From Bacteroidaceae bacterium (lineage in GTDB: Bacteria; Bacteroidota; Bacteroidia; Bacteroidales; Bacteroidaceae), in contig JAFXDG010000049.1 of NCBI GenBank assembly GCA_017521285.1, positions 1-56,141 of the forward strand: DNA of 56,141 nucleotides, in the 5' to 3' direction. This document shows positions 2,960 through 28,741 of the stretch, in pieces (position 1 is the stretch's first letter; each line of letters starts with the position of its first letter). A program made the position numbers and the translations under genes. Under the pieces are notes generated by a model, which ran no database searches, had not been told where the DNA came from, and was given only the letters and a program-made list of their open reading frames with translations.

Positions 2960-2977
2960 AATACTTTGGGCTTATGC

Positions 2978-3871
2978 TCAATACTTTATGTGCAGTTCCT
3001 GCAATATCTGACGCATCTTCTCAAAAGTGGTGATGCGTGTGGGCACCAACGGCAGGCGCAGACGGTTTTCAATCATGCCCATGGCATTGAGCATGGCCTT
3101 CACACCGGCAGGATTGCCATCCACGAAGAGGAGGCTGAACAGTTCGGTGAAACTGTGGTGAATCTTCAAGGCATTGGCATAGTCGCCCTGCAGAGCCAGA
3201 CGGGTCATGCGACTGAACTCCTTGGGGAAAGCATTTCCGATAACCGAGATGACTCGCACGGCACCCAATGTGATGAGCGGGAAGGTGATGCCGTCGTCGC
3301 CCGAGATGACGTCGAAGTTTTCCGGCTTGTTCTTGATGATGTCGTCCATCTGTGTGATGTTGCCCGAAGCCTCCTTGATAGCAATGACGTTCTTGAAGTC
3401 GCGTGCAATGCGCAAGGTTGTTTCTGCCGTCATGTTCACGCCCGTGCGTCCCGGTACGTTGTAGAGCACGATGGGCAGGTCGGTCGATTCAGCGATGGCC
3501 TTATAGTGCTGGTAGATGCCTTCTTGCGAGGGCTTATTATAATAAGGTACTACGGAAAGGATGGCATCGATGCCAGTGAAATCATCGTTTTTCAGCGAAT
3601 CAATGACGGCTTGTGTATTGTTTCCTCCGCAACCCAACATGATGGGGATGCGTCCGTTCACACGCTCCACAACCAGGCGGGTAATTTCTCGTTTCTCTTC
3701 CGTTGTCAGTGTCGGGGTTTCGGCCGTGGTACCCAATACACACAGGAAGTCTGCACCATTCTGCACCAAGTGGTCCACCATGCGCATCAAGGCCGGATAA
3801 TCCACCGAGCCATCTTCCTTAAATGGAGTGATAAGGGCCACGCCCATTCCTTTAAATCTGCGGTATATCAT
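2978..3871 (-). CDS. dapA: 4-hydroxy-tetrahydrodipicolinate synthase
   Basis: Cytoplasmic class I aldolase that condenses pyruvate with aspartate semialdehyde, the first committed step to diaminopimelate and lysine. The 297-residue length is normal. Visible motifs are GTTAE at 47-51, the catalytic Tyr137 in LYNVPGRTG, and the Schiff-base Lys166 in IKEASGN. It stands alone on the minus strand with a hairpin after the stop and a TAATTTTG -7 box about 44 bases upstream of the start. Members of the N-acetylneuraminate lyase branch share the fold, but the YNVPGRTG pattern fits DapA. Confidence 0.95.
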   Translation of the reverse strand: MIYRRFKGMGVALITPFKEDGSVDYPALMRMVDHLVQNGADFLCVLGTTAETPTLTTEEKREITRLVVERVNGRIPIMLGCGGNNTQAVIDSLKNDDFTGIDAILSVVPYYNKPSQEGIYQHYKAIAESTDLPIVLYNVPGRTGVNMTAETTLRIARDFKNVIAIKEASGNITQMDDIIKNKPENFDVISGDDGITFPLITLGAVRVISVIGNAFPKEFSRMTRLALQGDYANALKIHHSFTELFSLLFVDGNPAGVKAMLNAMGMIENRLRLPLVPTRITTFEKMRQILQELHIKY

Positions 3872-3914
3872 ATAGATAGCGTTTCTTACGTTTCAATTTT
3901 AAACTAATTGGCCG

Positions 3915-3922
3915 CAAAATTA
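3915..3922 (-). promoter_or_regulatory. Putative dapA -7 box
   Basis: Minus-strand TAATTTTG matches TAnnTTTG, 44 bases before the dapA start. No clear -33 element was seen. Confidence 0.4.
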
Positions 3923-4130
3923 CAAAATAAATTCGGTAAAAGCTGCATTTTGCTTGACAAATATTCCTCTTTTCTGTGATTTTAGAAACAATTTTTTCTG
4001 AACAGATTGGTAGGCGATGATGCACCTTTCCTTTCTATAGTCATAATAGCTCCTTATTTTCATGTCCTTCTTTCCTCATCTTGTCTTGTTGTCATAGTGA
4101 AGGTAATCTCCTGCCACGGTGATGGAAGTT

Positions 4131-4195
4131 CTCTGCCTTATACTTGGCAGAGTTTTGCCTCCATGGTGGCAGATGTCTGCCAACGGCGTTGGCAG
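4131..4195. repeat. Cluster of GGCAG/CTGCC hairpins in a gene-free stretch
   Basis: The 320 bases between the dapA promoter and the next gene hold no credible gene. They contain two perfect 7-bp hairpins: CTCTGCC (4131-4137) with GGCAGAG (4146-4152), and CTGCCAA (4177-4183) with TTGGCAG (4189-4195). They lie just 3' of the gene at 4244-4651 and may act as its terminator region, though no long U-tract follows. Confidence 0.45.
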
Positions 4196-4243
4196 TAGTA
4201 AAAGGAACGAATGGGTAAGCAAAAAGATACAGATGAATCCGTG

Positions 4244-14352: not shown

Positions 14353-14802
14353 ATGTTATCATTAAATCTGCCACCTTATGCCACAAAAATTGCGGTTCGT
14401 GATGGAAAAAATACCATTTGGGACATTATCCGCCGCAAATATGTAGCTTTGACACCCGAAGAATGGGTGCGTCAGCATTTTGTACATTTTCTTGTTGAGC
14501 ATAAGGGCTACCCTGCTTCATTGTTGGCCAACGAGGTGGCGCTGACGTTGAATGGTACTTCCCGTCGGTGCGACACTGTGCTTTACGACCGCACCCTCTC
14601 CCCTCGCATGATTATTGAATACAAGGCTCCGCACATTCCCATTACCCAAAAAGTGTTTGATCAAATCAGTCGCTACAATCTTGTTTTCCGTGTCGATTAT
14701 CTTATCGTCAGCAATGGCCTCTCCCACTATTGTTGCCGCATGGATTATGCCCGTCAGTCGTATCAGTTCTTGACCGATGTGCCAGGTTATAGCGAATTGT
14801 AG
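14353..14802 (+). CDS. Orphan HsdR N-terminal-domain (PD-(D/E)XK) protein
   Basis: A 149-residue protein matching only the N-terminal nuclease domain of type I restriction R subunits. The catalytic pattern is visible as CDTVLYDRTLSPRMIIEYKAP: Asp, then Glu-Tyr-Lys (ExK). There is no helicase domain, and no HsdM or HsdS gene nearby. Family members of this length occur beside holA and amn across Bacteroidales, so it is probably a conserved single-domain protein and not a broken restriction gene. Its substrate is unknown. Confidence 0.85.
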   Translation: MLSLNLPPYATKIAVRDGKNTIWDIIRRKYVALTPEEWVRQHFVHFLVEHKGYPASLLANEVALTLNGTSRRCDTVLYDRTLSPRMIIEYKAPHIPITQKVFDQISRYNLVFRVDYLIVSNGLSHYCCRMDYARQSYQFLTDVPGYSEL

Positions 14803-16207: not shown

Positions 16208-16573
16208 TTATACACCTAACACTATATTCGGAGAAATATTCAATGTTTTACTGATTGCTCTTGCTATATTCAGTGTAGGTTCGCTTTTGCAAGAAAGAAT
16301 TTCGCTTATTCTTGACGCGCTGATGTTGAGCAATTTGGCAAGTCCAGCCTGTGTCAATCCCATCTCATACATCCGCAATTTAATGACTTCAACCAATGTT
16401 GGTTCTCCTACGGCATAATGTTCCTCAGAATAGTCGGCTACCAAATTGGATAGCAATACCAATTCAATGTAATTAGGGTCATCCGTCGGTGTATTGTCGT
16501 TCACTAATGGCAACAATTCTTCAACCCTTTGTTCTGCCCAAGCGTACTGGATTTCATTTTCTATCTTTGTCAT
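16208..16573 (-). CDS. higA: HigA-type antitoxin (XRE family)
   Basis: About 121 residues from the ATG at 16573 (an earlier in-frame ATG at 16600 overlaps the toxin gene). The C-terminal half is a clear helix-turn-helix (MGLTQAGLAKLLNISASRISEILSCKSEPTLNIARAISKTLNI); the N-terminal half would bind the toxin. It follows the higB-like gene by 11 bases, in the toxin-first order usual for HigBA. Together they should autorepress the promoter at 16901-16931. Confidence 0.88.
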   Translation of the reverse strand: MTKIENEIQYAWAEQRVEELLPLVNDNTPTDDPNYIELVLLSNLVADYSEEHYAVGEPTLVEVIKLRMYEMGLTQAGLAKLLNISASRISEILSCKSEPTLNIARAISKTLNISPNIVLGV

Positions 16574-16584
16574 AATACCACAAA

Positions 16585-16881
16585 TTAAATGGTTGAACAA
16601 TTTTCTATCTTATCATACTCAGCATGTGTTCCTATAAATCTGACGTACACAAACTGAGGTGTAAACTGAATGACAACTACCAATCGATAATTATTTCCTT
16701 TGATATTGAATACATAATGCTGATTTCCAATGCTATCCACGCTATTGAATGTCTTTTTTATGTCTGCAAAACATGTCCATTCGCTATGTTTGACAATAGA
16801 GACCCACTCTTGAATAGCTACCTTGGTATCAGGATGTCTTTCAATGTATTCCTTTAGCTTCTTTTCTGTAAATATTCGCAT
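16585..16881 (-). CDS. higB: HigB-type toxin
   Basis: A 98-residue protein of the HigB_toxin branch of the RelE/HigB fold, a ribosome-dependent mRNA endonuclease that halts translation when its antitoxin is degraded. The family's ending YRLVVVIQFTPQFVYVRFIGTHAEYDKI is well preserved. First gene of the pair, with a strong promoter 20 bases upstream of the start. Toxin activity itself is inferred from the family. Confidence 0.9.
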   Translation of the reverse strand: MRIFTEKKLKEYIERHPDTKVAIQEWVSIVKHSEWTCFADIKKTFNSVDSIGNQHYVFNIKGNNYRLVVVIQFTPQFVYVRFIGTHAEYDKIENCSTI

Positions 16882-17238: not shown

Positions 17239-18141
17239 TCACCGACTGATGACCTCTCCCTTTCCATTCAGCACCACCTTGGCATTGTCATCGAGAAGTG
17301 TGGCAGCAAACAATTCGTTTCCAATGGCCTTTATATATAAGTATATGGGGGCGGTCAGAATATTTCCATTGCAATCCATCAGTCCACATCGGCCATTCAC
17401 CGTGTACATGCAATACTTCGTTTCCTTTGTGAAATCAGCGTTTCCATACTCATCATCTTTTTCTATCCAAAGAATATCCACCTTATCCACCACATGCCCG
17501 TTCTGTATATGGCCGGAATAGTCTATTTGCATGTTGAAACTATCCTTTACCTTCACGATGGCATAGTCCTTGCACACGATAGCATCCATGTATTCAGGAG
17601 CAATCACCCATTTGCCCGTCAGGTCAATCACACCATATTTGCCATCCACATTCGCAATGGCACAATATCCGTATCGGAATACACATTTGTCATCTCCATC
17701 CAGTTTGTTATCAGTATAATCAAATCCTATGACAGTTTCACCCTTTAGATTGATGAAGCCTACACGGCCATTCTTCACCACAGCGGCCAACCCTTGTGAG
17801 AATCTTTTTGCCTTTTCATAATCAGCTGCAATCACAATCTCTTTCGTATTCACGTTGTAGTACCCATATTTACCATCCTTCTTGAAAACACCTATCGTAT
17901 CATTGTCAAATGTTTCATATCCATCGGCAGTAACACCTGATACTACGAGTTTCTTCTCACTCCACGAATCAATTGCAGTTTCAATTCTCCTTTCTACCCC
18001 ATTTCTTCTACTGTTACTTGAACATTCACCGATAAAGAATACGATTATACATATCATCGTAAATCCCACGGCAAATCCTATTCCCATTTTCATGGCGTCA
18101 CGCCAACTCAGCAACGATTTCTTTTTCTTTTCTTCTTCCAT
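17239..18141 (-). CDS. WG-repeat protein with one membrane segment
   Basis: A 300-residue protein: short basic cytoplasmic N-terminus, a transmembrane helix at about residues 19-38 (GIGFAVGFTMICIIVFFIG), then WG-type beta repeats (KDGKYGYYNVNTKEIVIAADY; KNGRVGFINLKGETVIGFDY; VDGKYGVIDLTGKWVIAPEY; VNGRCGLMDCNGNILTAPIY). WG repeats are usually ligand- or peptidoglycan-facing sensor-like modules of unknown chemistry. It is the last gene of the minus arm of the 17-22 kb accessory block. No enzymatic motif is visible. Confidence 0.8.
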   Translation of the reverse strand: MEEEKKKKSLLSWRDAMKMGIGFAVGFTMICIIVFFIGECSSNSRRNGVERRIETAIDSWSEKKLVVSGVTADGYETFDNDTIGVFKKDGKYGYYNVNTKEIVIAADYEKAKRFSQGLAAVVKNGRVGFINLKGETVIGFDYTDNKLDGDDKCVFRYGYCAIANVDGKYGVIDLTGKWVIAPEYMDAIVCKDYAIVKVKDSFNMQIDYSGHIQNGHVVDKVDILWIEKDDEYGNADFTKETKYCMYTVNGRCGLMDCNGNILTAPIYLYIKAIGNELFAATLLDDNAKVVLNGKGEVISR

Positions 18142-18186
18142 AATAGATAGTTTTTCATATTAATATTGTACGTCTTATGCTCTTAT

Positions 18187-18684
18187 TCACAACATCGGAT
18201 TCGGTTCCTCAAAAATATACACATCATAAACACTATTCAAAAAAGTCTGGATATGTACCCCCATTTTCATATCCGAAGTTTTGACCAATACATCTGCATA
18301 ACTGTAATCCTTTCTAATCCCCGTAGGAATGACTGATGCCGAATGCACATTCAAATTCTCGAAATATTCCGAAAATAGTTTTATAAAATCCTCTTTGTCA
18401 ATCAAGTCATAGTTTTCGTCACGAGTTATTGGATGGTGATCACTGTGAAAAGAGAAAGATATCGGATTGGTCAGATAAGGCTTGATTATTGACATGTCAT
18501 TTCTCATGATAGCATCCGACAAAGCCTTATGTACAATACGCCTGTCGTATTTCCTGTGCTCACGAATAAATAGGTCTTCATACTCTCCTTCTTGGACTCT
18601 TCCCCACGAGTCCAACACTCCGTCATAATCAAACCTATAATATATTCTCTTCATCAATGATTCCATGGCTTTTATTTCAGTCAA
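18187..18684 (-). CDS. Unknown 165-residue protein
   Basis: Soluble, charged protein with no recognised family. Residues 50-165 alternate strands and helices in a way that recalls NTF2-like folds (DAIMRNDMSIIKPYLTNPIS as paired helix then strands HIQTFLNSVYDVYIFEEP), which is only an impression. Starts at residues 1, 7 or 12 are all possible. A TACCTTTG -7 box lies about 30 bases upstream, so it may be transcribed apart from the VWA gene 56 bases further upstream. Confidence 0.65.
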   Translation of the reverse strand: MTEIKAMESLMKRIYYRFDYDGVLDSWGRVQEGEYEDLFIREHRKYDRRIVHKALSDAIMRNDMSIIKPYLTNPISFSFHSDHHPITRDENYDLIDKEDFIKLFSEYFENLNVHSASVIPTGIRKDYSYADVLVKTSDMKMGVHIQTFLNSVYDVYIFEEPNPML

Positions 18685-18740
18685 TTCAGATTATATTCTT
18701 TGTGCAAAGGTAATCATTTATTCCGATTTACATTGTGACC

Positions 18741-19880
18741 TTACAGATAATCCCAAAATTCTTTCGGCAGTTTCACATTGTCGAGTTTGGCATAGTTTGC
18801 AAACATTGGAGCAATGTTGTAAACACTCCATCCAGCAGTTCCGCATCCGATGCGTGTGACAAAGAAAGTAAGTTCGGGATGGTCTGTCGCAAATTGATGG
18901 AAACGGCAGACAGCGGCATATAATTCTTTCAAGCTGACTCCATCGGTAGGAATGGCATACGATTGTCCTTGCAATCCCTCTGCTTGCCCGTTGATGGCAC
19001 CAAAGGACTGGAATGCACATGCCGATGCTCCCCCACTATGAATGCCGTAAATGTTGCTTCCGAAAACAAATATTTCATTCTCTTTCAGCGAAGTGACCAT
19101 TTCAGGAGTAATGCGGTCGGGGTTGACCTCTTTTTTCGTATAGTAGTTTCCACTATTCTCTTTCTTGCTGAATGAAGTTCTGGACATTTCATCTTCCATT
19201 AGGATATTAAAACTATATTTGGCATTTGAACGCAATCGTGCTTCGCGTTCACGTTTCCACATAGCACCTGTTTGTGCATCGGTTTGCTCAAATTGCATAA
19301 AGTTGTCTATGTGTAGTTTTTTCCCATAATCAGCCGCATCAATATTCGCTCCGATAAAAGAGAATATCACATTCTTCTCTTTCAACTCATCAATCAATAT
19401 TTTCACCGAATTAAGGTTGTATTCACACGATGCATTCTCATACCCATCTGTAATGATGGTGACATATCCCAAGCTTTCCTTTTCTCTTTCAATTGTCCGT
19501 TTCAGTTCGGTAAGCGTGAAACCCAATGCGTCAAAAAGCGGAGTACTGGCATACGGACGATAATCTTCTTCTGTAATCTCCCGAACCTTATCTACCTTTT
19601 CTTCCTTGATTATATATCGGCTTTTCGTCGTATCAAACAGATAGATTGACACATAGTGTCGTTGTGTTTCAATTGTCTGTTCCTGCATCATCCGAATGGT
19701 CTGTATCGTCTCATTACATCCCGAGATGGTAGCTCTGGTAATACACCTCATCGAACCGCTTTCATCCAATACGATGAGGTGATAGACTGAAGTCATTCTT
19801 TTAGAATCCTTACTCTTACTTGCTCCCGTTTGCGTCTTCATTTGGCGCACTTTCTTACTGAATAGATTTTTCCAAGACAT
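18741..19880 (-). CDS. VWA domain fused to an A1S_2505-type (macro-like) domain
   Basis: A 379-residue cytoplasmic protein. Residues 30-215 are a von Willebrand A domain with a complete metal-site DESGS (Asp39, Ser41, Ser43), a later Thr in STPLFDAL and the ITDGYENAS loop. Residues 268-379 match the A1S_2505 phage-associated family: FVFGSN, GIHSGGASACAFQSFGAI, GLQGQSYAIPT, TRIGCGTAGWSVYNIAPMF, KLPKEF. The Gly-rich motifs suggest a macro-domain-like pocket for ADP-ribose-type ligands (inference). It is followed by the WG-repeat arm and preceded by the DUF4407 gene 28 bases away. VWA proteins usually scaffold complexes, so this may bring a nucleotide-sensing module to partners encoded beside it. 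Confidence 0.82.
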   Translation of the reverse strand: MSWKNLFSKKVRQMKTQTGASKSKDSKRMTSVYHLIVLDESGSMRCITRATISGCNETIQTIRMMQEQTIETQRHYVSIYLFDTTKSRYIIKEEKVDKVREITEEDYRPYASTPLFDALGFTLTELKRTIEREKESLGYVTIITDGYENASCEYNLNSVKILIDELKEKNVIFSFIGANIDAADYGKKLHIDNFMQFEQTDAQTGAMWKREREARLRSNAKYSFNILMEDEMSRTSFSKKENSGNYYTKKEVNPDRITPEMVTSLKENEIFVFGSNIYGIHSGGASACAFQSFGAINGQAEGLQGQSYAIPTDGVSLKELYAAVCRFHQFATDHPELTFFVTRIGCGTAGWSVYNIAPMFANYAKLDNVKLPKEFWDYL

Positions 19881-19908
19881 ATTGCTTACAATTTATATGG
19901 TTAATTGA

Positions 19909-20880
19909 TTATTTGATATTTCGTGATAACTCTTTAAGTGTCGTTTCTTTCATTTTCAATTGGTGTTCAACTATCATGTCATAATCACATTTCTTATCTC
20001 CCATTTTACTGGCAACCACAAAAAGTTCTAATGAAATAAGGAAAGAGAAGATGATGAGATAAAATATCAAGGCTTCTGTTCTCGTGGAGACAATCTCAAT
20101 CATTGCATTTAACTCCTCCAGAAAACCTACACTTTCTGATAATTCTTTTCTTAAATTATCCTCCACATCCATTTTTCTGTTTGTATATTCATCTTGCAAG
20201 TTTCGATACCTTTTTAGCAAAGTGTCATTTGCTTCTACCTGTTTGATTCTTGGATTGGGAACATGAGAAGTCGTAACAGTTGTTTCAGGTACAGTTTTAT
20301 AGCTCCCGTCTTCTTGTAGAACTTTTTTGTATGTAGTTGACCGTCCTGTTTGTGGGACAGTAGGTGTTTTTGCTATTTCTTCATTGAGCCTGATATTTAC
20401 TTTATCCAATGAGTCTATAGTTACTTTCAGTTCTTGAAGTTTTGAATCTATCACACTCAGACGCATAGGAAGTTGTTCACGTACTTGTCGATCTGTTATC
20501 TCAACCATTTTCTTCTTTATGTCCTCACCAAAGATTACTTGATCCAAAATGGCAGAACCTAAAACTGCCATAATAATGGCGATGAAGAATCTGAACACAA
20601 CCCCCATTTTATTACTTCCCACTGTCAGAATTATCTGCCTTTCTATTTGAATAATGACAATTATGAAGATTAAAGAAGAAACTATACATCCCCATACTGG
20701 TGCATGTACATATCGTTGTGCAAAACAGAATCCTGTAAATCCCCATAAGAGTATCAGAATTAATAATGCTGAAGTATATTTCTTCAAATGCTTATAACTG
20801 GCCTCACTGCATTGTGACAAGATATTGCTATTCCATCCAGTGAGGAAACAACCGAATTTTATCCACCACTTCATAATCAA
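19909..20880 (-). CDS. DUF4407 membrane protein with long coiled coil
   Basis: A 323-residue inner-membrane protein. Predicted helices at about 38-55, 61-78, 95-115 and 270-291; between the third and fourth lies a ~140-residue coiled-coil and linker region (repeated KLQELKVTIDSLDKVNIRLNEE pattern). This topology and the N-terminal WWIKFGCFLTGWNSNILSQC fit DUF4407, a family of unknown function. Its start overlaps the upstream coiled-coil gene by 4 bases (ATGA), so the two products probably work together. Confidence 0.8.
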   Translation of the reverse strand: MIMKWWIKFGCFLTGWNSNILSQCSEASYKHLKKYTSALLILILLWGFTGFCFAQRYVHAPVWGCIVSSLIFIIVIIQIERQIILTVGSNKMGVVFRFFIAIIMAVLGSAILDQVIFGEDIKKKMVEITDRQVREQLPMRLSVIDSKLQELKVTIDSLDKVNIRLNEEIAKTPTVPQTGRSTTYKKVLQEDGSYKTVPETTVTTSHVPNPRIKQVEANDTLLKRYRNLQDEYTNRKMDVEDNLRKELSESVGFLEELNAMIEIVSTRTEALIFYLIIFSFLISLELFVVASKMGDKKCDYDMIVEHQLKMKETTLKELSRNIK

Positions 20881-21440
20881 TCCTCCTTATCGTTTACATA
20901 CATATTCATTTGCTCCATAGATACAGCCGACAGTCCTTTCAAGAAGCCCTTTTCATAGGACAAAAGCATTCCAATCATATAGGGAACATTGTTTTGAAAA
21001 TCCTTTTCCATCTGGTCAAGTCTGTCCACATGTTCTTGCAACTTGCTTTTCTCTGTTTCCAATTGCTTGACGAAATCTATCAATCCTGCTTCCCTACGCG
21101 AATTGATGTGAAAATCCAATTTCTGCAATTTGTCTGTATAGCTAAGTCGTACTTGTCTGAATTTTACCTCAAGTTTGCTACGGATAATGGCTTTGTTCAT
21201 CTCTTTGTACGAAACTTCCGGATTGGATAATGCATCTTCATATCCTTTTGATTCGTAATCCTTTTGAAGAAAAGCATAGATTAAATCTATGGGCATTCCT
21301 GTACCATACTTGATTGTTACCATAGAAGAATCCTTTTCATTTGTCGGATTTTCATTCATTACATTCTCTTCTTGCCCGAACTTCTCTGTTGATACGGGAG
21401 TATTTGACATGTTCTTTTTGAAAAAATCAATAAATCTCAT
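20877..21440 (-). CDS. Unknown coiled-coil protein (187 residues)
   Basis: Hydrophilic protein with a disordered N-terminus (Asn/Glu/Ser rich) and a predicted coiled coil at about residues 85-150 (VKFRQVRLSYTDKLQKLDFH; VKQLETEKSKLQEHVDRLDQ). No signal or membrane helix; no known family. The stop overlaps the DUF4407 start by 4 bases, which implies translational coupling and suggests it is a soluble partner of that membrane protein. Confidence 0.7.
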   Translation of the reverse strand: MRFIDFFKKNMSNTPVSTEKFGQEENVMNENPTNEKDSSMVTIKYGTGMPIDLIYAFLQKDYESKGYEDALSNPEVSYKEMNKAIIRSKLEVKFRQVRLSYTDKLQKLDFHINSRREAGLIDFVKQLETEKSKLQEHVDRLDQMEKDFQNNVPYMIGMLLSYEKGFLKGLSAVSMEQMNMYVNDKED

Positions 21441-21473
21441 ACTATTTATGTTTTAAGTTTATAAAATTCTTGT

Positions 21474-21602
21474 TTAAAGAATGGAATGTGTATCCCTACA
21501 GATTCCATTCAAGCACGAATTATTTCGTGTTCTGTCATAAATAGCATGATTTATTCTATCAACTTCGTTTCTCTTCTTGATTGTCCCAATGATGCTATTC
21601 AT
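21474..21602 (-). CDS. Possible 42-residue protein ahead of the coiled-coil gene
   Basis: ATG-started frame (MNSIIGTIKKRNEVDRINHA...) ending TAA at 21474-21476. It lies 37 bases after the bipartite motif at 21639-21667, much as the 274-residue gene lies 44 bases after the other copy, which raises its credibility. The product is short and basic with two cysteines near the end; no family recognised. It may instead be only the leader of the downstream operon. Confidence 0.35.
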   Translation of the reverse strand: MNSIIGTIKKRNEVDRINHAIYDRTRNNSCLNGICRDTHSIL

Positions 21603-21638
21603 AACTGTTTTGCTATTGTTTAATCTTTCTTTTATTTG

Positions 21639-21667
21639 TTTATCGCAAAGTTTATGAAAAGGTAAAC
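21639..21667 (-). promoter_or_regulatory. 29-bp bipartite motif, copy A
   Basis: Minus strand: GTTTACCTTTTC, 8 bases, TGCGATAAA. The same two blocks with identical total length occur at 22543-22571. It lies upstream of the coiled-coil/DUF4407/VWA arm. Could be an ECF-type promoter or an operator. Confidence 0.5.
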
Positions 21668-21674
21668 AAGAGAA

Positions 21675-22499
21675 TCAAAAAATAAATTCATTTTTGCAAT
21701 GTTGGCATTGCTTGAATCCCAATTGTTCTAATAGGAAACCTTCCATTTCAAGTTCTGGATTATATTTTACCCGATAATAATTCTGCAACAATTCGATAAT
21801 AGGCTTTTTGAATTCTTGTTCGTATTGAGCAAGCAACTCCTTTACCTCTTCATCAGAATACCCGGTATCATTATTCTGTATGGGTATCAGTCTATGGGCT
21901 AAAAAAGTCAATTTGCTGAAACGTTTTAGTATACAAGTGTTTTTGGCACTTGCATAATAAAATCTTGAGGCTCCATCTAATTTCTTGTTTATCATTTCTA
22001 CAAGTTTGTTCAATGGCAAGTTGTCTATTGCTACATATCCAGAGTTTTTGCATACAATGTCCTCCAAATGAATATTGACTCCGAAGGCTATGTTAATACG
22101 CATTTCAAGTACACTTCTATCACCATCCAATAAGTAAAGGTTTGCTTTGAACCAATTCCGAAATCGTAATCCTTCGCCTTTTTCTATGATTTCTTTAGGA
22201 ATACGGAAGTTGCAATAATCAGCATGAAGCCTCTCGCAATATGGCACATTGTGGTAACAAGGCGCTTCTCCCTCAAACACATAAGTCATAGTGTCTTCCT
22301 TTATAGGAACCCTTTGATAGACTTCTGTGATGAACTTTTGTGGTTCTTTGACAAACATTTGGTAGGCCAATAATGATTGCTCCTCCATCTTACTGAAAAA
22401 ATAAATGGGCTTTTCATAAATTGTTCCTTTCAAGTTGGCATTCTTTAAGTTCAACTTGTGGAGAATCTTTTTTGAGTTTGCTTTCGTAATGTAAGCCAT
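21675..22499 (-). CDS. Unknown 274-residue protein with C-terminal CxxC
   Basis: Soluble protein without a recognised family. Notable: a Cys/His-rich patch (APCYHNVPYCERLHADYCNFRIPKEI, residues about 79-104, split here only for reading) and a C-terminal QCQHCKNEF, which together could bind a metal. The middle contains FGVNIHLEDIVCKNSGYVAIDNLP, suggesting an alpha/beta fold. First gene of the minus arm, directly opposite the caspase operon; the bipartite motif copy B lies 44 bases upstream. Shared regulation with the caspase operon is likely, function unknown. Confidence 0.7.
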   Translation of the reverse strand: MAYITKANSKKILHKLNLKNANLKGTIYEKPIYFFSKMEEQSLLAYQMFVKEPQKFITEVYQRVPIKEDTMTYVFEGEAPCYHNVPYCERLHADYCNFRIPKEIIEKGEGLRFRNWFKANLYLLDGDRSVLEMRINIAFGVNIHLEDIVCKNSGYVAIDNLPLNKLVEMINKKLDGASRFYYASAKNTCILKRFSKLTFLAHRLIPIQNNDTGYSDEEVKELLAQYEQEFKKPIIELLQNYYRVKYNPELEMEGFLLEQLGFKQCQHCKNEFIF

Positions 22500-22542
22500 G
22501 TTATTTGATATTTATGACAGTTTTTATTCATGCTTTTACTCA

Positions 22543-22571
22543 TTTATCGCATCAAAAAGGAAAAGGTAAAC
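22543..22571 (-). promoter_or_regulatory. 29-bp bipartite motif, copy B
   Basis: Minus strand: GTTTACCTTTTC, 8 bases, TGCGATAAA. It lies in the divergent gap, 44 bases before the 274-residue gene and 68 bases before the caspase gene, so it could affect both. Confidence 0.5.
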
Positions 22572-22623
22572 AGAATAATGACAGAAAATGAGAAAAAAGT
22601 TTTTAGACTAAAGAAATTATCTA

Positions 22624-22631
22624 TACATTTG
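22624..22631 (+). promoter_or_regulatory. Putative -7 box for the caspase operon
   Basis: TACATTTG matches TAnnTTTG but ends only 7 bases before the caspase start codon, so the mRNA would be almost leaderless. The -33 region is a TTTTT run, 19 bases upstream. Confidence 0.4.
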
Positions 22632-22638
22632 CTTCGCA

Positions 22639-23502
22639 ATGAGAAAATGGATAGCCTTTATTTGCCTGTTTTTTTGTTTCTTCGCTTATGCCCAACAGAA
22701 ACACGCATTCGTGGTTGCAGTTTCCGAATATCCCTCTCAATCAGGGTGGAGTAAGATTCATAGTAACAACGATGCGGCTATCCTTGTGCCAGAATTTCAA
22801 CGATTAGGCTTTCATTGTACTGTTCTGCTCAATGAACAAGCCACTCAAAAGAACATCCTTCATCGGTTGGACTCTTTGGAAGAATCTCTCGTTAAAGGGG
22901 ATTATGTAGTATTGCACTTCTCTTGTCATGGTCAGCAGATGGAAGATGACAATGGGGATGAAATTGAAAAATTGGATGAAGCATTGATTCCTTACGATGC
23001 AGCTCATATATATAATAAAGGTATATACGAGGGGGAATCTCATTTGCGGGATGATGAGTTGGAATGTCATTTGCTGAGAATACGCAAACAGCTTGGTGAA
23101 ACAGGTTCTCTGTTTGTAACTTTGGATGCTTGTCACAGTGGAACCGCTAATCGTATAGAAGAGTATCAGGAAGATGATGAGGAAGTGCCCGTTCGTGGCA
23201 GCAGTTCTGTGTTTTCTTCTGATCCATTCTTTTTATCTCCCGAAATTAAGAAAGTGGAACGGAATACGGAACTTCCCCATTTAAAAGGATATTCTCCTGT
23301 TTGTGTTATCAGTGCTTGCCAACCCTTTCAACGGAATTTTGAAACAAAAGTTGACGGACAATATTATGGTACTCTATCCTACTCACTTTATCAAGTCTTG
23401 ACGAATTGTGACAAATGGATTCCTTCTTTATACCCGATGGTATTAGATAATGCCGAACGTTTGTCAATCAAACAAATTCCCATGATGGAAAGAACATACT
23501 GA
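22639..23502 (+). CDS. Secreted caspase-like (C14) cysteine protease
   Basis: A 287-residue protein with a signal peptide (residues 1-19, ending AYAQ), so it acts in the periplasm or at the cell surface. The caspase/metacaspase p20 core is clear: HAFVVAVSEYP start strand, catalytic His97 in FSCHGQ, catalytic Cys165 in DACHSG. The C-terminal part after ISACQP is short. It is the first gene of a tight operon: 4 bases to the ECF sigma gene, then the membrane TPR, HEPN-like and CHAT genes. By analogy with regulated proteolysis it may cut the periplasmic part of the TPR protein; that is inference. Confidence 0.88.
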   Translation: MRKWIAFICLFFCFFAYAQQKHAFVVAVSEYPSQSGWSKIHSNNDAAILVPEFQRLGFHCTVLLNEQATQKNILHRLDSLEESLVKGDYVVLHFSCHGQQMEDDNGDEIEKLDEALIPYDAAHIYNKGIYEGESHLRDDELECHLLRIRKQLGETGSLFVTLDACHSGTANRIEEYQEDDEEVPVRGSSSVFSSDPFFLSPEIKKVERNTELPHLKGYSPVCVISACQPFQRNFETKVDGQYYGTLSYSLYQVLTNCDKWIPSLYPMVLDNAERLSIKQIPMMERTY

Positions 23503-23506
23503 GCCT

Positions 23507-24067
23507 ATGGATTTATTAAGGGACATACAAAACAATCAAGAGACTAACCGCATATATGCAGAACTACGCAATGGGTTCTTTGCATATATCCATGTGGCAG
23601 TTTCTATGATTACGGAAGAAGAGCTGGAAGAGGTTTATAACGATTCTTTTTTAGCTCTTTGCGACAACATTTCTTCAGGAAAACTACAGACTTTGACCTG
23701 TTCATTGCAAACCTATATCAATCAGATTGGAAGAAACAAAGCTATCAGTTTGCTTCGGACAAAAGACAATACGACTGAATTGCCCGATTATGAAATAGGT
23801 TTGCCTGGCAGTAGCATCGATATGGCAGACGATGATGAAACAACAGTGGAAATGCAAGAAGAAGTTTACCGTATCGTGCAAGAGTTTGATTGTGATAAAT
23901 GCAAGAAGATTCTTTTCGGATTCTATTGGCAACATCTTTCATTAGAAACATTGGCCCAACTGACGGGTGCTCGTAGTACTGATGTGGTGAAGACAGAAAA
24001 GAGCCGTTGCATGAAGCGGTTGAGAGAAAAGGTAATGAATGTATTCAAGCAAAAAGGATTGATTTGA
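23507..24067 (+). CDS. ECF-type RNA polymerase sigma factor
   Basis: A 186-residue sigma-70 family protein with region 2 (EEVYNDSFLALCDN...LQTYINQIGRNKAISLLR, the ECF region 2.1-2.4 pattern) and region 4 helix-turn-helix (LSLETLAQLTGARSTDVVKTEKSRCMKRLREKV). It should direct RNA polymerase to a small regulon and normally be held inactive by a membrane partner. The next gene, 2 bases away, encodes a one-helix membrane protein of the right topology. The repeated 29-bp motif in the divergent region is a candidate target. Confidence 0.88.
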   Translation: MDLLRDIQNNQETNRIYAELRNGFFAYIHVAVSMITEEELEEVYNDSFLALCDNISSGKLQTLTCSLQTYINQIGRNKAISLLRTKDNTTELPDYEIGLPGSSIDMADDDETTVEMQEEVYRIVQEFDCDKCKKILFGFYWQHLSLETLAQLTGARSTDVVKTEKSRCMKRLREKVMNVFKQKGLI

Positions 24068-24069
24068 TT

Positions 24070-24735
24070 ATGGAAGAACAGAAAATAGATAAACTCATAG
24101 AGCAAGCTATCCAACGCGTAGGAAAGGAAAAAGATGAGCGTGACTTTACTGTATTGCGAGAATTTCTGAGTATAAAAGATGGGGAAAGGGAAAAAGCATA
24201 TAGAAAAGCTTGCGACAAACAACCATTGTCAACAGAAACTAAAAAGACATCATCAAAGATTAAGTCTATCTGGTTGTCAATCGTCTCCATTGCCGCCATC
24301 ATTGCTATAGTGTTTTCATTGAATATATATCGCGATAATCTGCGAATGGATGAAGCGTTCCGCACACATTATACCCCATTGGAATATGACCCTCAGTTGC
24401 TGTCTCGCGGTGAAGAATCTCCCCTTTCTCTTGAATTGACAGAGGCAATGGATGCTTATCAACGTCAGGACTATTCTGCGGCTTTACAGAAATTAGATGC
24501 CATTCCAAACCTTGATGAGAACTTCTTGATATACAAAGCTATTTGCTTGATTGAAACAGATCAACTTACCCAATCCATCAGCCTATTAGAGGAATTGGTT
24601 AATCATGGTGAAGCCACAGAGTATTACCAACAAGCCAATTGGTATTTGGCTTTGGCTTATTTGAAGACACATGAAGGAGAGAAAGCTAATAAACTAATAA
24701 TCAAAGGGAACTTTAATTTTAAAGAATTAAGATGA
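24070..24735 (+). CDS. Single-pass membrane TPR protein, possible anti-sigma factor
   Basis: A 221-residue protein: charged cytoplasmic N-terminus of about 65 residues, a transmembrane helix at 67-87, and a periplasmic part with TPR-like helices (AMDAYQRQDYSAALQKLDAIP; AICLIETDQLTQSISLLEEL; WYLALAYLKTHEGEKANKLI). Position right after the ECF sigma gene and the inside/outside layout match anti-sigma factors, although no standard anti-sigma motif (such as a zinc HxxxCxxC) is present. The start was placed at ATG 24070, 2 bases after the sigma stop. The last ~15 codons lie in the AT-rich block that continues into the next gene; the end overlaps the next start by 4 bases. Confidence 0.78.
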   Translation: MEEQKIDKLIEQAIQRVGKEKDERDFTVLREFLSIKDGEREKAYRKACDKQPLSTETKKTSSKIKSIWLSIVSIAAIIAIVFSLNIYRDNLRMDEAFRTHYTPLEYDPQLLSRGEESPLSLELTEAMDAYQRQDYSAALQKLDAIPNLDENFLIYKAICLIETDQLTQSISLLEELVNHGEATEYYQQANWYLALAYLKTHEGEKANKLIIKGNFNFKELR

Positions 24736-25436
24736 GAAAAGTTTTATATAAAAAGAGGTTTACCAAAAATGCATCTAAATTAGCCCTAAAATGTTATAAA
24801 TATATTGTTGATATTTTGAATAGGACTAATGCTGATTCAGAATGTTTGAAAGTTGGCGCGTTAACAGAAAATGATCGAATATTTACTGATAGTAATGGCA
24901 TTACGGATCCATGGTTAAGGGGGAATCGTTCTTTTACAGAAATAGCTCTTCCAAGAAGTTATATGAATACAGCATTAGATTTGTTATCTTTTTCCAATAT
25001 GGCAAATGATAATCTTACAAAAGATGGCTATCTATATCCTGCATTATTCTGTTTCAGACAATATTTGGAATTAACGATGAAGGATTCTATTCATTATTTT
25101 AAAGTATATAGAGGTGAAACATCCGATTCTCTACTCGGGTATGATGGAATCCATAGTTTAAAGGATATGTGGAATTCACTATCTTTTTATTTAGAAGAAA
25201 GTGAAGATAATATAATTGTAGAAAAATTAATTTATGATTTTCATAAGATTGATCCAACATCTACAAGATTCAGATATTCATATGGTGTTGGAAAGAATTT
25301 TATCACTCAGAAAAAAGAACTTATAGTACCATATAATGATGAAGGTTTTATTAACGTTGTAAATTTGCGAAATGTAATGCTCAAATTATATCGCTATTTT
25401 GAAGGAATTAACGGATTAGCAAGGAAAGAACGATGA
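24732..25436 (+). CDS. HEPN-like all-helical protein
   Basis: A 234-residue soluble protein. Helical segments YLYPALFCFRQYLELTMKD, then GIHSLKDMWNSLSFYLE, then FHKIDPTSTRFRYSYG resemble a recurring family with a HEPN-type four-helix core often found beside defence genes (recalled pattern, not searched). A canonical RxxxxH catalytic motif is not evident, so it may be a non-catalytic HEPN relative. Very AT-rich compared with the sigma and caspase genes. It overlaps its neighbours by 4 bases at both ends, so it is embedded in the operon. Confidence 0.55.
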   Translation: MRKVLYKKRFTKNASKLALKCYKYIVDILNRTNADSECLKVGALTENDRIFTDSNGITDPWLRGNRSFTEIALPRSYMNTALDLLSFSNMANDNLTKDGYLYPALFCFRQYLELTMKDSIHYFKVYRGETSDSLLGYDGIHSLKDMWNSLSFYLEESEDNIIVEKLIYDFHKIDPTSTRFRYSYGVGKNFITQKKELIVPYNDEGFINVVNLRNVMLKLYRYFEGINGLARKER

Positions 25437-28400
25437 AACATATTGCGATTAAATTTATAGTTGTATTTATTCTTTGTTGTAGTGGAATATTTGCTCAAAC
25501 TAATGAACATAACATTCTACATGGAATAGAATTGTGCAAACAGGGAAAATATAATGTAGGACTATTTTATTTACCGTCTATCAAAGAAGAAAAAGATATC
25601 CCAACACAAATAAAACTTAGAGGCGAATTTTATTTGCAATATGCTTATTATTTCTCCAATGATAAAAGATTTTCTCTAAATCAATTAGATTCTATCTGTG
25701 AGATTTATGTGCCAAATGATTCTGTTGATTTGAATTTGCCAAGAACTATTGCATACAATTTATCTAAAAAGGGGAATTACGCAATGGCACTAAAATATGG
25801 TAAAATCACAACAAAATGGAATGAATTAGTCTATGGGAAGAAATCTATACAATATGCTTATGCTTTAGATAATCTATCAATTCGTTATACAGACATCAAT
25901 GAGTATGATTCAGCCATGATATGTGCCAAAAAGGCAAATAACATAATCGGACGTACTATTGGCATAAACAATATTGATTACGTAAAAAGTTTGAATAATA
26001 TTGCTGATATTTATTTATGCACTAGAAAATATAGTAAAAGTATAAAGTATTTTGAAAAGGGGCTTGAGATTATAGAAAGAAATAATCTACAAAATGACGT
26101 AATGTATCCAATATTATTAGACAACTTGAGTATTTTATATTTTAATAATATTGATAAAGAAAAGGGAATATATTATAATGAGAAGGCTTTAAATTTGTAT
26201 TACAAGGATACACTTTCTTCTGATTATGTGACAACTTTATCTAATTTAGGTACTAAATATAGTGCCATAGGTAAACATGAAGATGCTATAAAGTGCTATT
26301 TAAAGGCATTGTCAATTACTATGAAGATTAAAGGTCCTGAAACATATGAATGCATAAATGCATATAGAAAACTCGCTTCTTCATATTTGAAATTAGGCGA
26401 TTATCAGAAATATTTAGATTTATCAATGTCTTCATTGAGTATTATGAATAAAAAAGGAATAAACAATTCATATTATATTCAAGAACTTGTAGACAATATG
26501 ATTGATTATGAAGATTATATAAATGCAAAATCTTTACTTGAACAATTGTTAGAAAAGGATTATTGTTCTCAACAAGATTCTATCAAATATTTGAGAAATC
26601 TTTCCTATTGTTGCTATGATAATATGGAAGCGTTAAAATATATGAATATATGTGTTAATGTTGCTAATAGATATTATGATTTAGATTCTGATGATGGTTT
26701 ACTGGCATTTACAACTATAGCAAGTGACTATTGCATATGTTTGATAAAGACTTTTGAAAATAGGAATATTGCTGAAGCTCTCAAATATATGCAGAATCTA
26801 CTTATGTATCGAGAAATGATTCTATCAGATACACATCCTTTATACATATCGTCTCTTTTAAACGTTATGTATTATAGTGCTTTTTTTAAAATCTCAGAAA
26901 TATCCGATAAATTGGAAGAAAAAGCAAATAATATCTTGATGAAAGAGATTTCAAATGATGATCGAATAAATTTATTGTCTAAATTGTCTATTTTATATTA
27001 CTACAAGAAAGATTATGCACAAACTGTACACTATGGAGAAGAAGCATTGTCTTATTGTAACAAATTTACTAAAAACGCCACATATGAAGACTGTTTACAC
27101 AATCTACTTCTTGCATATATAAAAAGGGAAGAACATCATAATATTTCTCGAATAATTACTAAAATTTGGAAACAGTTGGATAAAAAACACTCGGTTTTAT
27201 ATTGGATATCCCAAACGGAAAAAAAGAATTATTGGGAGAAAGAAAATTATAATAGAGTTTTACCAGAGATATATTATTTAGCAAATAAATATCCTCAAAT
27301 TAAAGAATATATCCAATGGGCATATGACGGTTTGTTAAGAAGTAAGAATTGTGACCATATTATCCTAGGAAACAACAAAAAAATAAAGCAGACATTCAGA
27401 CAACTAAGAATAATTTCAGAAAAAACAAATCGGATTATAGATCGAGGTGATATAGGTAATGAAGAGTATAAAAAAATAATAAAGACAAAAGAAGCATTAG
27501 AACGTGAAATCAATAAAAATGCAACTCTTTGGGGATTGAATGTCGATGAAAATCAATTGATGGATATTACATGGAGTGATGTAAAAAGTAAATTAGGTAA
27601 GAATGATATTGCAATTGAATTTATGGATAATGCTGCAATTCTATTAAAATATGATTGGAATTCTCCAAAGCTAATTCATATCTCATATCCTAGAAATTTT
27701 GTCAACAATATTGATTCATTAAAATGTTATAGCGATTTAATATGGAAACCAATAAAAGATTATCTAAATAATATTGAAAATATTTACTTCTCAACATCAC
27801 ATATTTTACATAAGATTCCTATTGAATCTTTACCTATAAATGATAAATACATAATGAGTGATATCTTTAATATGCATCGTTTGTCATCAACTCGTGAGTT
27901 ATTGAGTGAAAGCCAAAATATTAAATATACAACTGCAGTATTATATGGCGGACTTGATTATGATATGTCAGATGAAAAAATGCTTATTGAGAGTAATAAA
28001 TATTATAGTTATTTTACTGATAAAAAGGCTTTTATATCAAGAGGCTTACTAAATGATTCAATTAGAGGATATTTATGGAATACATTAAGCAATACAGAAA
28101 ATGAAGTTACCTACATTTCTCAGTTATTACAAAAATACGATATTTCAACCATTGTATATAAGGGAATATCTGGAAATGAAGAGTCATTTAAGAACCTTTC
28201 AGGCAATAAATATGATATCATACATATAGCGACACATGGTTTTTTCTATCCTAACGAAGAGGCTAAAAAGAAAGATTATTATAGACTATTTATGAAAAAT
28301 GATATAAAAAGTTTTTCTAATGATATAGATTTCTCCATGTGGCGCTCTGGTTTGGTGCTTTCTGGAGGTAATCGTGCATGGAAAGGCGATACAATCCCTG

Positions 28401-28741
28401 ACCAGGTGGAGGATGGAATTTTGAAAGCACAAGAAATCAGCGACCTTGATTTACGAGGTGCTGACTTGGTGGTTCTTTCCGCTTGTCAAACAGGTTTAGG
28501 TGAAATCACCAGTGACGGAGTGTTTGGTTTGCAACGCGCATTCAAAATGGCTGGTGCACAAACCATCGTGATGAGTCTTACAGAAGTGGATGACCAAACT
28601 ACCATGGCCATGATGAATAAGTTCTATACAAACTTATTTTCTGGTCAATCCAAACACGATGCATTCTACAACGCCCAACGTTATATCCGTTCCATCAAGC
28701 CTAATCCTAAATATTGGGCTGGATGGATTATGTTGGATTAA
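25433..28741 (+). CDS. Secreted TPR-CHAT protease
   Basis: A 1102-residue exported protein: signal peptide 1-21 (ending IFAQ), a long array of TPR-type helical repeats (about 80-640, e.g. IQYAYALDNLSIRYTDINEYDSAMICA split into helices; AIGKHEDAIKCYLKALSI), a linker, and a C-terminal CHAT (caspase-HetF-associated) domain from about 720. The catalytic His935 in HIATHG and Cys1018 in SACQTG are both present, as is the C-terminal YWAGWIMLD. The TPR part would recognise a partner and gate the protease. Base composition jumps at about 28,330: codons up to about 966 are AT-rich, the rest is near the chromosomal average. Last gene of the operon. Confidence 0.88.
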   Translation: MKHIAIKFIVVFILCCSGIFAQTNEHNILHGIELCKQGKYNVGLFYLPSIKEEKDIPTQIKLRGEFYLQYAYYFSNDKRFSLNQLDSICEIYVPNDSVDLNLPRTIAYNLSKKGNYAMALKYGKITTKWNELVYGKKSIQYAYALDNLSIRYTDINEYDSAMICAKKANNIIGRTIGINNIDYVKSLNNIADIYLCTRKYSKSIKYFEKGLEIIERNNLQNDVMYPILLDNLSILYFNNIDKEKGIYYNEKALNLYYKDTLSSDYVTTLSNLGTKYSAIGKHEDAIKCYLKALSITMKIKGPETYECINAYRKLASSYLKLGDYQKYLDLSMSSLSIMNKKGINNSYYIQELVDNMIDYEDYINAKSLLEQLLEKDYCSQQDSIKYLRNLSYCCYDNMEALKYMNICVNVANRYYDLDSDDGLLAFTTIASDYCICLIKTFENRNIAEALKYMQNLLMYREMILSDTHPLYISSLLNVMYYSAFFKISEISDKLEEKANNILMKEISNDDRINLLSKLSILYYYKKDYAQTVHYGEEALSYCNKFTKNATYEDCLHNLLLAYIKREEHHNISRIITKIWKQLDKKHSVLYWISQTEKKNYWEKENYNRVLPEIYYLANKYPQIKEYIQWAYDGLLRSKNCDHIILGNNKKIKQTFRQLRIISEKTNRIIDRGDIGNEEYKKIIKTKEALEREINKNATLWGLNVDENQLMDITWSDVKSKLGKNDIAIEFMDNAAILLKYDWNSPKLIHISYPRNFVNNIDSLKCYSDLIWKPIKDYLNNIENIYFSTSHILHKIPIESLPINDKYIMSDIFNMHRLSSTRELLSESQNIKYTTAVLYGGLDYDMSDEKMLIESNKYYSYFTDKKAFISRGLLNDSIRGYLWNTLSNTENEVTYISQLLQKYDISTIVYKGISGNEESFKNLSGNKYDIIHIATHGFFYPNEEAKKKDYYRLFMKNDIKSFSNDIDFSMWRSGLVLSGGNRAWKGDTIPDQVEDGILKAQEISDLDLRGADLVVLSACQTGLGEITSDGVFGLQRAFKMAGAQTIVMSLTEVDDQTTMAMMNKFYTNLFSGQSKHDAFYNAQRYIRSIKPNPKYWAGWIMLD

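Follow-up and report, generated by a model that had tools for sequence, protein, structure and literature searches.

A conserved caspase, sigma factor and TPR-CHAT cassette of Bacteroidales, predicted to act as a transmembrane signalling switch

Caspases of prokaryotes are usually considered in the context of the cytoplasm, where they execute cell death or defence. Control of a sigma factor from the envelope is represented by RseA (DegS) and RsiW, where a sigma factor is paired with a one-transmembrane (one-TM) anti-sigma that receives its first cut on the extracytoplasmic side; RsiW is cut by PrsW. A protease and a sigma factor also stand together in Craspase (CASP), which comprises type III-E Cas7-11, the TPR-CHAT protein Csx29, Csx30 and CASP-sigma (PMC10028731, excerpted text). 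In the excerpted account of EACC2-caspase neighbourhoods, a caspase, an extracytoplasmic function (ECF) sigma factor and a TPR gene (DUF1822) are adjacent and a transcriptional output is proposed (PMC8195603), and a Bacteroidales sigma/anti-sigma pair induced by the toxin BcpT is described as an envelope-stress ECF response (PMC9308784, likewise excerpted). Here we describe a divergent locus (positions 17,239 to 28,741) on contig JAFXDG010000049.1 of a Bacteroidaceae bacterium (assembly GCA_017521285.1), of which the whole stretch of 56,141 nucleotides was analysed and is called the window below. Its plus-strand operon encodes a caspase-like protease, an ECF-type sigma factor, an anti-sigma-like membrane protein, a variable-slot protein and a TPR-CHAT protein, and its divergent arm encodes a DUF4407 membrane protein together with further proteins.

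The locus shares with Craspase the presence of a clan CD protease, a (here predicted) sigma inhibitor and an ECF-like sigma factor in one locus, with motifs for the sigma factor (here likewise predicted) lying within the locus itself (PMC10028731, excerpted text). It differs in that its proteases look exported, the predicted cutter is the caspase and the inhibitor is a membrane protein; furthermore, the window has no CRISPR-like array and no Cas match among the proteins scanned, the remaining genome not having been searched for Cas. The initial annotation had noted the missing Cas and CRISPR elements, which agrees with these scans, and had drawn the parallel with Craspase, which stands for the set of protease, inhibitor and sigma factor but as an analogy only, with the caspase favoured as the cutter. 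With RseA and RsiW the locus would share the sigma factor, the one-TM anti-sigma and the extracytoplasmic first cut, and PrsW takes the position of the caspase in two sister loci; here, however, site-1 cleavage would fall to an Arg/Lys protease of the caspase fold, accompanied by a TPR-CHAT protein. In the EACC2 neighbourhoods, the caspase is preceded by an EACC2 domain and its C termini vary, and neither an exported stand-alone caspase nor an anti-sigma cleavage site is mentioned in the excerpts of that account (PMC8195603). The anti-sigma of the BcpT-induced pair has an outer-membrane beta-barrel, and the main text of that report never uses the word "caspase" (PMC9308784). No description of the full gene set was found in these excerpts or among the matches listed from the open-licence PMC literature. 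On balance, it appears somewhat probable that the locus is a transmembrane signalling switch, in which the caspase would cut the anti-sigma, the sigma factor would be freed and the divergent arm would be transcribed.

The core of the locus is a real, conserved regulatory cassette. On the plus strand, the caspase-like protease (22639-23502) is followed by the sigma factor (23507-24067), the one-TM protein (24070-24735, counted from the ATG at 24070, where the open reading frame [ORF] list starts it at a TTG at 24007), the variable-slot protein (24732-25436) and the TPR-CHAT protein (25433-28741). The gaps of 4, 2, -4 and -4 bases and the gene positions had been given correctly, as judged by the ORF list. 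Co-occurrence of the two arms, which the initial annotation had proposed to look for in other Bacteroidales, was found in the three nearest relatives, L006 (a Bacteroidaceae metagenome-assembled genome), L007 (Bacteroides oleiciplenus) and L008 (Mediterranea massiliensis). All three have the DUF4407 gene and the genes of a 187- and a 274-residue protein divergent from the caspase, sigma, one-TM, (slot) and TPR-CHAT genes, and the flanking ORFs differ by eye. Not every one of these relatives retains the VWA, 165-residue and slot genes; the VWA and slot genes, first counted as parts of the system, are not retained in these relatives.

Linkage of the core extends beyond these relatives. In a family sample of 151 genomes, the caspase search matched 28, and 24 strong loci in 23 genomes were counted after removal of five weak matches (E values of 7e-6 to 8e-4). 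In 22 of these 24 loci, a sigma factor is encoded on the caspase strand no more than 1 kb away, and 18 have a CHAT gene within 3 kb. At the level of the order, the caspase was present at an E value of ≤1e-20 in 28 of 344 genomes, with caspase-sigma pairs in L172, L173, L177 and L195, while L189 has a long caspase with a sigma-like gene at a distance of about 1 kb; in other orders of the class, none of 15 caspase loci showed a sigma factor or CHAT gene within the 1.5-kb flanks covered. PrsW (3.7e-36 and 1.5e-35) is found directly upstream of the sigma factor in two (L247 and L250) of four caspase-less sister loci; of these two, L247 but not L250 encodes a one-TM protein behind the sigma factor. 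In L189, L192 and L193, a long caspase is accompanied by a small protein that looks exported and carries two SRG motifs, a possible substrate.

The caspase assignment proved right (PF00656, 2.2e-16), as did the catalytic pair His97/Cys165, which is invariant in an alignment of 33 caspases together with Asp45, Ser95 and Asp163. Sequence motifs place the protein with the metacaspase type (C14B), with a His/Cys dyad and acidic S1-pocket motifs. The proposed S1 pocket of TbMCA2 consists of Cys92, Asp95, Ser156 and Asp211, and in MALT1 Asp365 binds the P1 Arg together with three further residues, Asp462 also lying in the pocket (PMC4357240, excerpted text). Because of the motif reading and the matches to 3bij and to metacaspases, Asp45, Ser95 and Asp163 are proposed as motif equivalents of TbMCA2 Asp95, Ser156 and Asp211, and these conserved acidic-pocket motifs make specificity of the window caspase for Arg/Lys likely. 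By a simple rule, signal-peptide-like N termini are present in 30 of the 33 caspases and in all 23 CHAT proteins, the window's included in both cases, in line with the earlier statement that both proteases carry signal peptides. The linker of the caspase carries Arg186-Gly187. The EACC1-associated caspase model NF047832 gives the protein 26.4 bits where 140 are required, and its PADLOC match is weak (1.8e-5).

The sigma factor scores 39.3 bits with TIGR02937 (E value of 4.9e-10), just short of the curated threshold of 42.9, and no Pfam sigma family was retrieved for it at an E value of ≤0.1. Directly beside it, the one-TM protein has a single TM segment by hydropathy (about residues 66 to 84), with a presumed orientation that leaves its TPR-like C-terminal part outside; the TPR_19 match of 0.0019 is below cut-off. 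This protein is read as the anti-sigma of the neighbouring ECF sigma factor. About 17 of 29 one-TM proteins share, by a loose pattern, a RIDRYLxGxM-like N terminus, which we take to be of the anti-sigma type. PDB profile searches with the one-TM, 274-residue, slot and 187-residue proteins returned nothing convincing.

The one-TM proteins contain a candidate site for the caspase. Their set comprises 32 proteins without the truncated L183, and the alignment comprises 29, leaving out L085, L086 and L087, near relatives of L083. At a median identity of 19%, three columns besides Met1 are at least 90% conserved in it, namely, A75, R113 and W191. The R113 column holds Arg in 27 proteins, Lys in L190 and His in L174, and the next residue is Gly in 19, Ser in 5, Ala in 4 and Asp in 1, so that 28 of the 29 have G, S or A there. 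In the window, Arg113-Gly114 (codons at 24406-24411, plus strand) sits about 29 residues past the TM segment, between it and the TPR-like part. Of the 32 proteins, 29 have an R[GSA] pair 8 to 48 residues after the TM segment; among 20 representatives (<45% identity), 17 have it, versus 4.6 expected by shuffling. The distance of the pair from the TM segment varies between 11 and 41 residues. Among the exceptions, L190, with Lys in the R113 column, has Lys also at the linker site of its own caspase, L174, with His, has no detectable sigma factor, and L177 has Arg-Asp at the site.

Controls were one-TM proteins beside related sigma factors with no caspase within the fetched flanks. In the first set, R[GSA] was present in 0 of 7 within 5 to 45 residues after the TM segment, L036 and L037 having R-S at its very end, outside this range; in the second set, 3 of 15 had it versus 3.9 expected, which is chance level. 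No usable TM ORF was available for 1 of 8 controls in the first set and 5 of 20 in the second. A caspase cut of the anti-sigma at this near-invariant Arg/Lys, followed by a small residue, is a specific prediction, for which the support is good but not decisive. Six strong caspase loci with no CHAT match (L088, L089, L090 and L092, covered for about 5 to 10 kb on each side, and L084 and L091, near contig ends) keep the Arg as R-[SA]; the caspase is therefore the protease that these loci have in common with the others, and a better candidate than CHAT for the first cut. Proteolysis of the TPR protein, as suggested in the initial annotation, gains from the conserved basic-small site outside the membrane, but with the caspase favoured over CHAT as the cutter.

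The motif reported to be shared within the divergent arm is real: the minus strand of the window has two copies of TGTTTACCTTTT-N10-GCGATAAA with 0 mismatches, versus 0.01 expected. The measured spacer is 10 bases (11 in one L007 copy), and no match was obtained when 11 bases were required. One copy (22543-22572) precedes the gene of the 274-residue protein (21675-22499), which has a C-terminal CxxC and would be the first sigma target, and the other (21639-21668) precedes the operon of the 187-residue (20877-21440) and DUF4407 (19909-20880) proteins, all on the minus strand. These GTTTACC/CGATAAA motifs are predicted to be the sigma-dependent promoters of the divergent arm. With ≤2 mismatches allowed, the promoter core matched 29 times in four genomes. 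The 7 perfect matches are all within this locus, and the remaining 22 equal the 22 of a reversed-pattern control. When 38 loci were scanned with a looser pattern, 11 sites were found versus 0.7 expected from mononucleotide shuffles. The window, L006, L007 and L008 have two each, 43 to 46 bp before the 274-residue gene and 55 to 200 bp before the 187-residue gene, and L075 has one before the 187-residue gene. Since the pattern was made from known sites, only two of the scan sites are new, one in L077, 37 bp before the gene behind the closest caspase-less sigma and anti-sigma, and one, unexplained, in L010; these two are suggestive and not significant alone. The caspase is preceded by the box TACATTTG (22624-22631, plus strand) of the form TAnnTTTG, which we take to be the housekeeping-type -7 consensus and which lies within 60 bp of the caspase in the window, L006, L007 and L008 (about 0.05 expected by chance per locus).

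The 187-residue gene has a structured leader (21432-21568, minus strand). Positions 21430-21650 fold strongly (z of -5.76), and the start-codon segment can pair with an inverted copy, so that the start codon may be sequestered; this copy can alternatively pair upstream. The leaders of L007 and L008 form hairpins similar to these, with some stem letters differing by eye. The element with the conserved hairpin TGTAGNGATACA is also found at L006 6418-6551 and L211 40-167, both on the minus strand. The L006 copy stands before a different arm gene (5.2e-7) and has a z of -2.10 and no start-codon stem, and the copy outside the locus, at a contig end in G574, likewise lacks this stem. Among 301 genomes, 2 have the element, the window's included. 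A regulatory role of the leader is a guess, and it may also be a mobile hairpin. An Rfam identity was rejected, the only match at an E value of ≤1 lying elsewhere (18094-18194) and below the gathering score.

The CHAT assignment (PF12770, 7.4e-47, plus TPRs) and its catalytic residues His935/Cys1018 were as claimed, and the protein is a putative sensor/activator. In L006 and L008 the slot before it is occupied by SIR2_2 proteins, whereas it is empty in L007; in more distant loci, DUF2971 with other genes (L009) or a DUF3990, ART-like gene (L010) stand before or beside CHAT. The window's slot protein had been called HEPN-like, for which no informative match was found in Pfam, NCBIfam, PADLOC or PHROGs, and none of the 151 sampled family genomes besides the window's has a match to it. 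An identity as a HEPN ribonuclease was discarded, no RX4-6H being conserved among four homologues. The protein and its plasmid homologues share R109, H141xL and FRY180-182, and one of these homologues is encoded directly behind a Shedu nuclease gene.

From the computed gene order, motifs and conservation we infer topology, binding, cleavage, release, promoter recognition, sensing and a role in defence as follows. The one-TM protein would hold the ECF sigma factor at the inner membrane. The exported metacaspase-type protease would be activated by an event at the envelope, for which the exported TPR-CHAT protein may be the sensor, and would cut the anti-sigma at Arg-Gly, on the C-terminal side of Arg113 and some 29 residues beyond the TM segment; general intramembrane and cytoplasmic proteases would then free the sigma factor. 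The latter would transcribe the divergent arm (the 274-residue gene, and the 187-residue gene with DUF4407 and a variable tail) from the two predicted promoters. The caspase operon itself would be under a housekeeping-type promoter, with the divergent arm as the predicted output, and the genes of the slot preceding CHAT, be they SIR2, ART-like or that of the window, may be local effectors. Put more broadly, and tentatively, this may well be a widespread Bacteroidales envelope-surveillance switch in which an exported metacaspase makes the first cut of a membrane anti-sigma at a conserved Arg/Lys-small site, TPR-CHAT is sensor or activator, PrsW is interchangeable with the caspase and the slot of likely effectors is exchangeable.

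Several observations weigh against this switch. Two strong caspase loci have no sigma factor within 1 kb (L080, and L092 with one at 4.8 kb), and L174 has a caspase and a one-TM protein with no sigma factor found. The RIDRYLxGxM-like N terminus is absent from the one-TM proteins of the window and its three nearest relatives, and the N-terminal part of the window protein has no family or PDB match. Among the controls, those of the same sigma subfamily (L236, L237 and L242) match R[GSA] in two of three cases; the RA of L236 lies deeper within the TPR-like part, and the YRG found beside PrsW in L237/L247 appears equivalent in position to the predicted site. Some controls are poor, L228 probably being no anti-sigma and L239 and L244 reaching only 15 residues past the TM segment, and the one-TM proteins are kin, an ancestry that the shuffle and Fisher P values ignore. 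Arg186-Gly187 of the caspase linker was dropped as special evidence, non-operonic caspases having R-G too. The looser promoter pattern was written with most of its sites in view, and no copy of the motif stands before the sigma operon itself.

Control of the sigma factor could be non-proteolytic, by a ligand or partner binding the TPR-like outer part of the one-TM protein, with Arg113 as a binding contact and the proteases acting on other envelope proteins. The YRG beside a sigma factor that has PrsW instead of a caspase (L247) would fit this, but R113 lies in the stem between the TM segment and the TPR-like part, and the variable distance of R[GSA] from the membrane suits a cleavage site, which leaves such control rather unlikely. 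We regard it as unlikely that CHAT is the site-1 protease as in Craspase, where the ECF sigma inhibitor Csx30 is cleaved by TPR-CHAT Csx29 (PMC10028731, excerpted text), and that the caspase acts as an executioner further downstream or in parallel; CHAT does lie within 3 kb in 18 of the 24 strong loci, but six strong caspase loci without a CHAT match keep R-[SA].

A locus serving chiefly for anti-phage abortive infection, in which the proteases and slot genes kill the cell and the sigma arm is auxiliary, would agree with the patchy occurrence and low GC content, with the SIR2_2 slot genes of L006 and L008 and with the slot-protein homologue beside Shedu. Against this, both proteases appear exported, the PADLOC caspase match is weak and the caspase-sigma core is spread more widely than the slot genes seen; we regard this reading, too, as unlikely. 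That the genes are unrelated neighbours would suit the VWA, 165-residue and slot genes, which not all of the nearest relatives retain, but it is scarcely credible and largely refuted for the core, which has the same order in L006 to L008 despite flanks that differ by eye and a caspase-sigma linkage of 22 of 24.

Within the divergent arm, the DUF4407 call was right (PF14362, 2.1e-45), and the 187-residue gene adjoins DUF4407 in nine of nine genomes with a match. Homologues of the 274-residue protein have 52 to 56% identity in L006 to L008, and one marginal match besides the window's own genome was found among the 151 family genomes. Others (L204 to L207) are on plasmids of Bacteroidota and a small Raoultella plasmid; on a Hymenobacter plasmid, it is the terminal part of a longer protein, annotated as S1 RNA-binding, that matches. 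No viral home of this gene was confirmed in viral_contigs. The protein described as a VWA-A1S_2505 fusion (18741-19880, minus strand) matches A1S_2505_Nterm (1.6e-36), its VWA match reaching 20 bits versus the Pfam cut-off of 23.8; the family name was kept and a macro-domain identity was abandoned, no PDB match being found in that region. Further along the minus strand are a 165-residue protein of no named family (18187-18684), with a relative in the L008 arm (2e-12), and a WG-repeat protein (17239-18141), with relatives near the 187-residue/DUF4407 genes of two other genomes (L134 and L135). An FtsZ-family gene (PF00091, 2e-43) lies in the tail of the L006 arm (2966-4207, minus strand), and an FtsZ C-terminal fragment lies right after DUF4407 in L007 (5813-6280, minus strand). 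Long DUF4407 proteins (L138 and L139) are found in cassettes with kinase-like genes (L138) and ORFs that by eye look like VWA and PP2C. A TerY-type cassette consists of VWA, PP2C and kinase; no PP2C phosphatase and kinase of this type were found among the locus proteins scanned.

The GC content is 0.26 to 0.41 over 16 to 30 kb of the window, versus 0.49 to 0.54 over 30 to 52 kb. This is a hint of an acquired island, a signal that is weak because the GC content of the left flank itself ranges from 0.37 to 0.52. The locus is adjoined by a toxin-antitoxin-like pair of a HigB-type toxin (PF09907, 5e-32) and a helix-turn-helix protein (16208-16881, minus strand), and a stand-alone HSDR_N_2 protein (1.8e-42) is encoded nearby (14353-14802, plus strand).

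The switch favoured here makes the function of a caspase family directly testable, the natural substrate and the exact bond, Arg113-Gly114 of the anti-sigma, being predictable from sequence. If correct, it would connect transcription in gut Bacteroidales with proteases of the caspase and CHAT types, and would constitute a compact protease-to-promoter sensor in which transcription is driven by a caspase from the periplasm.

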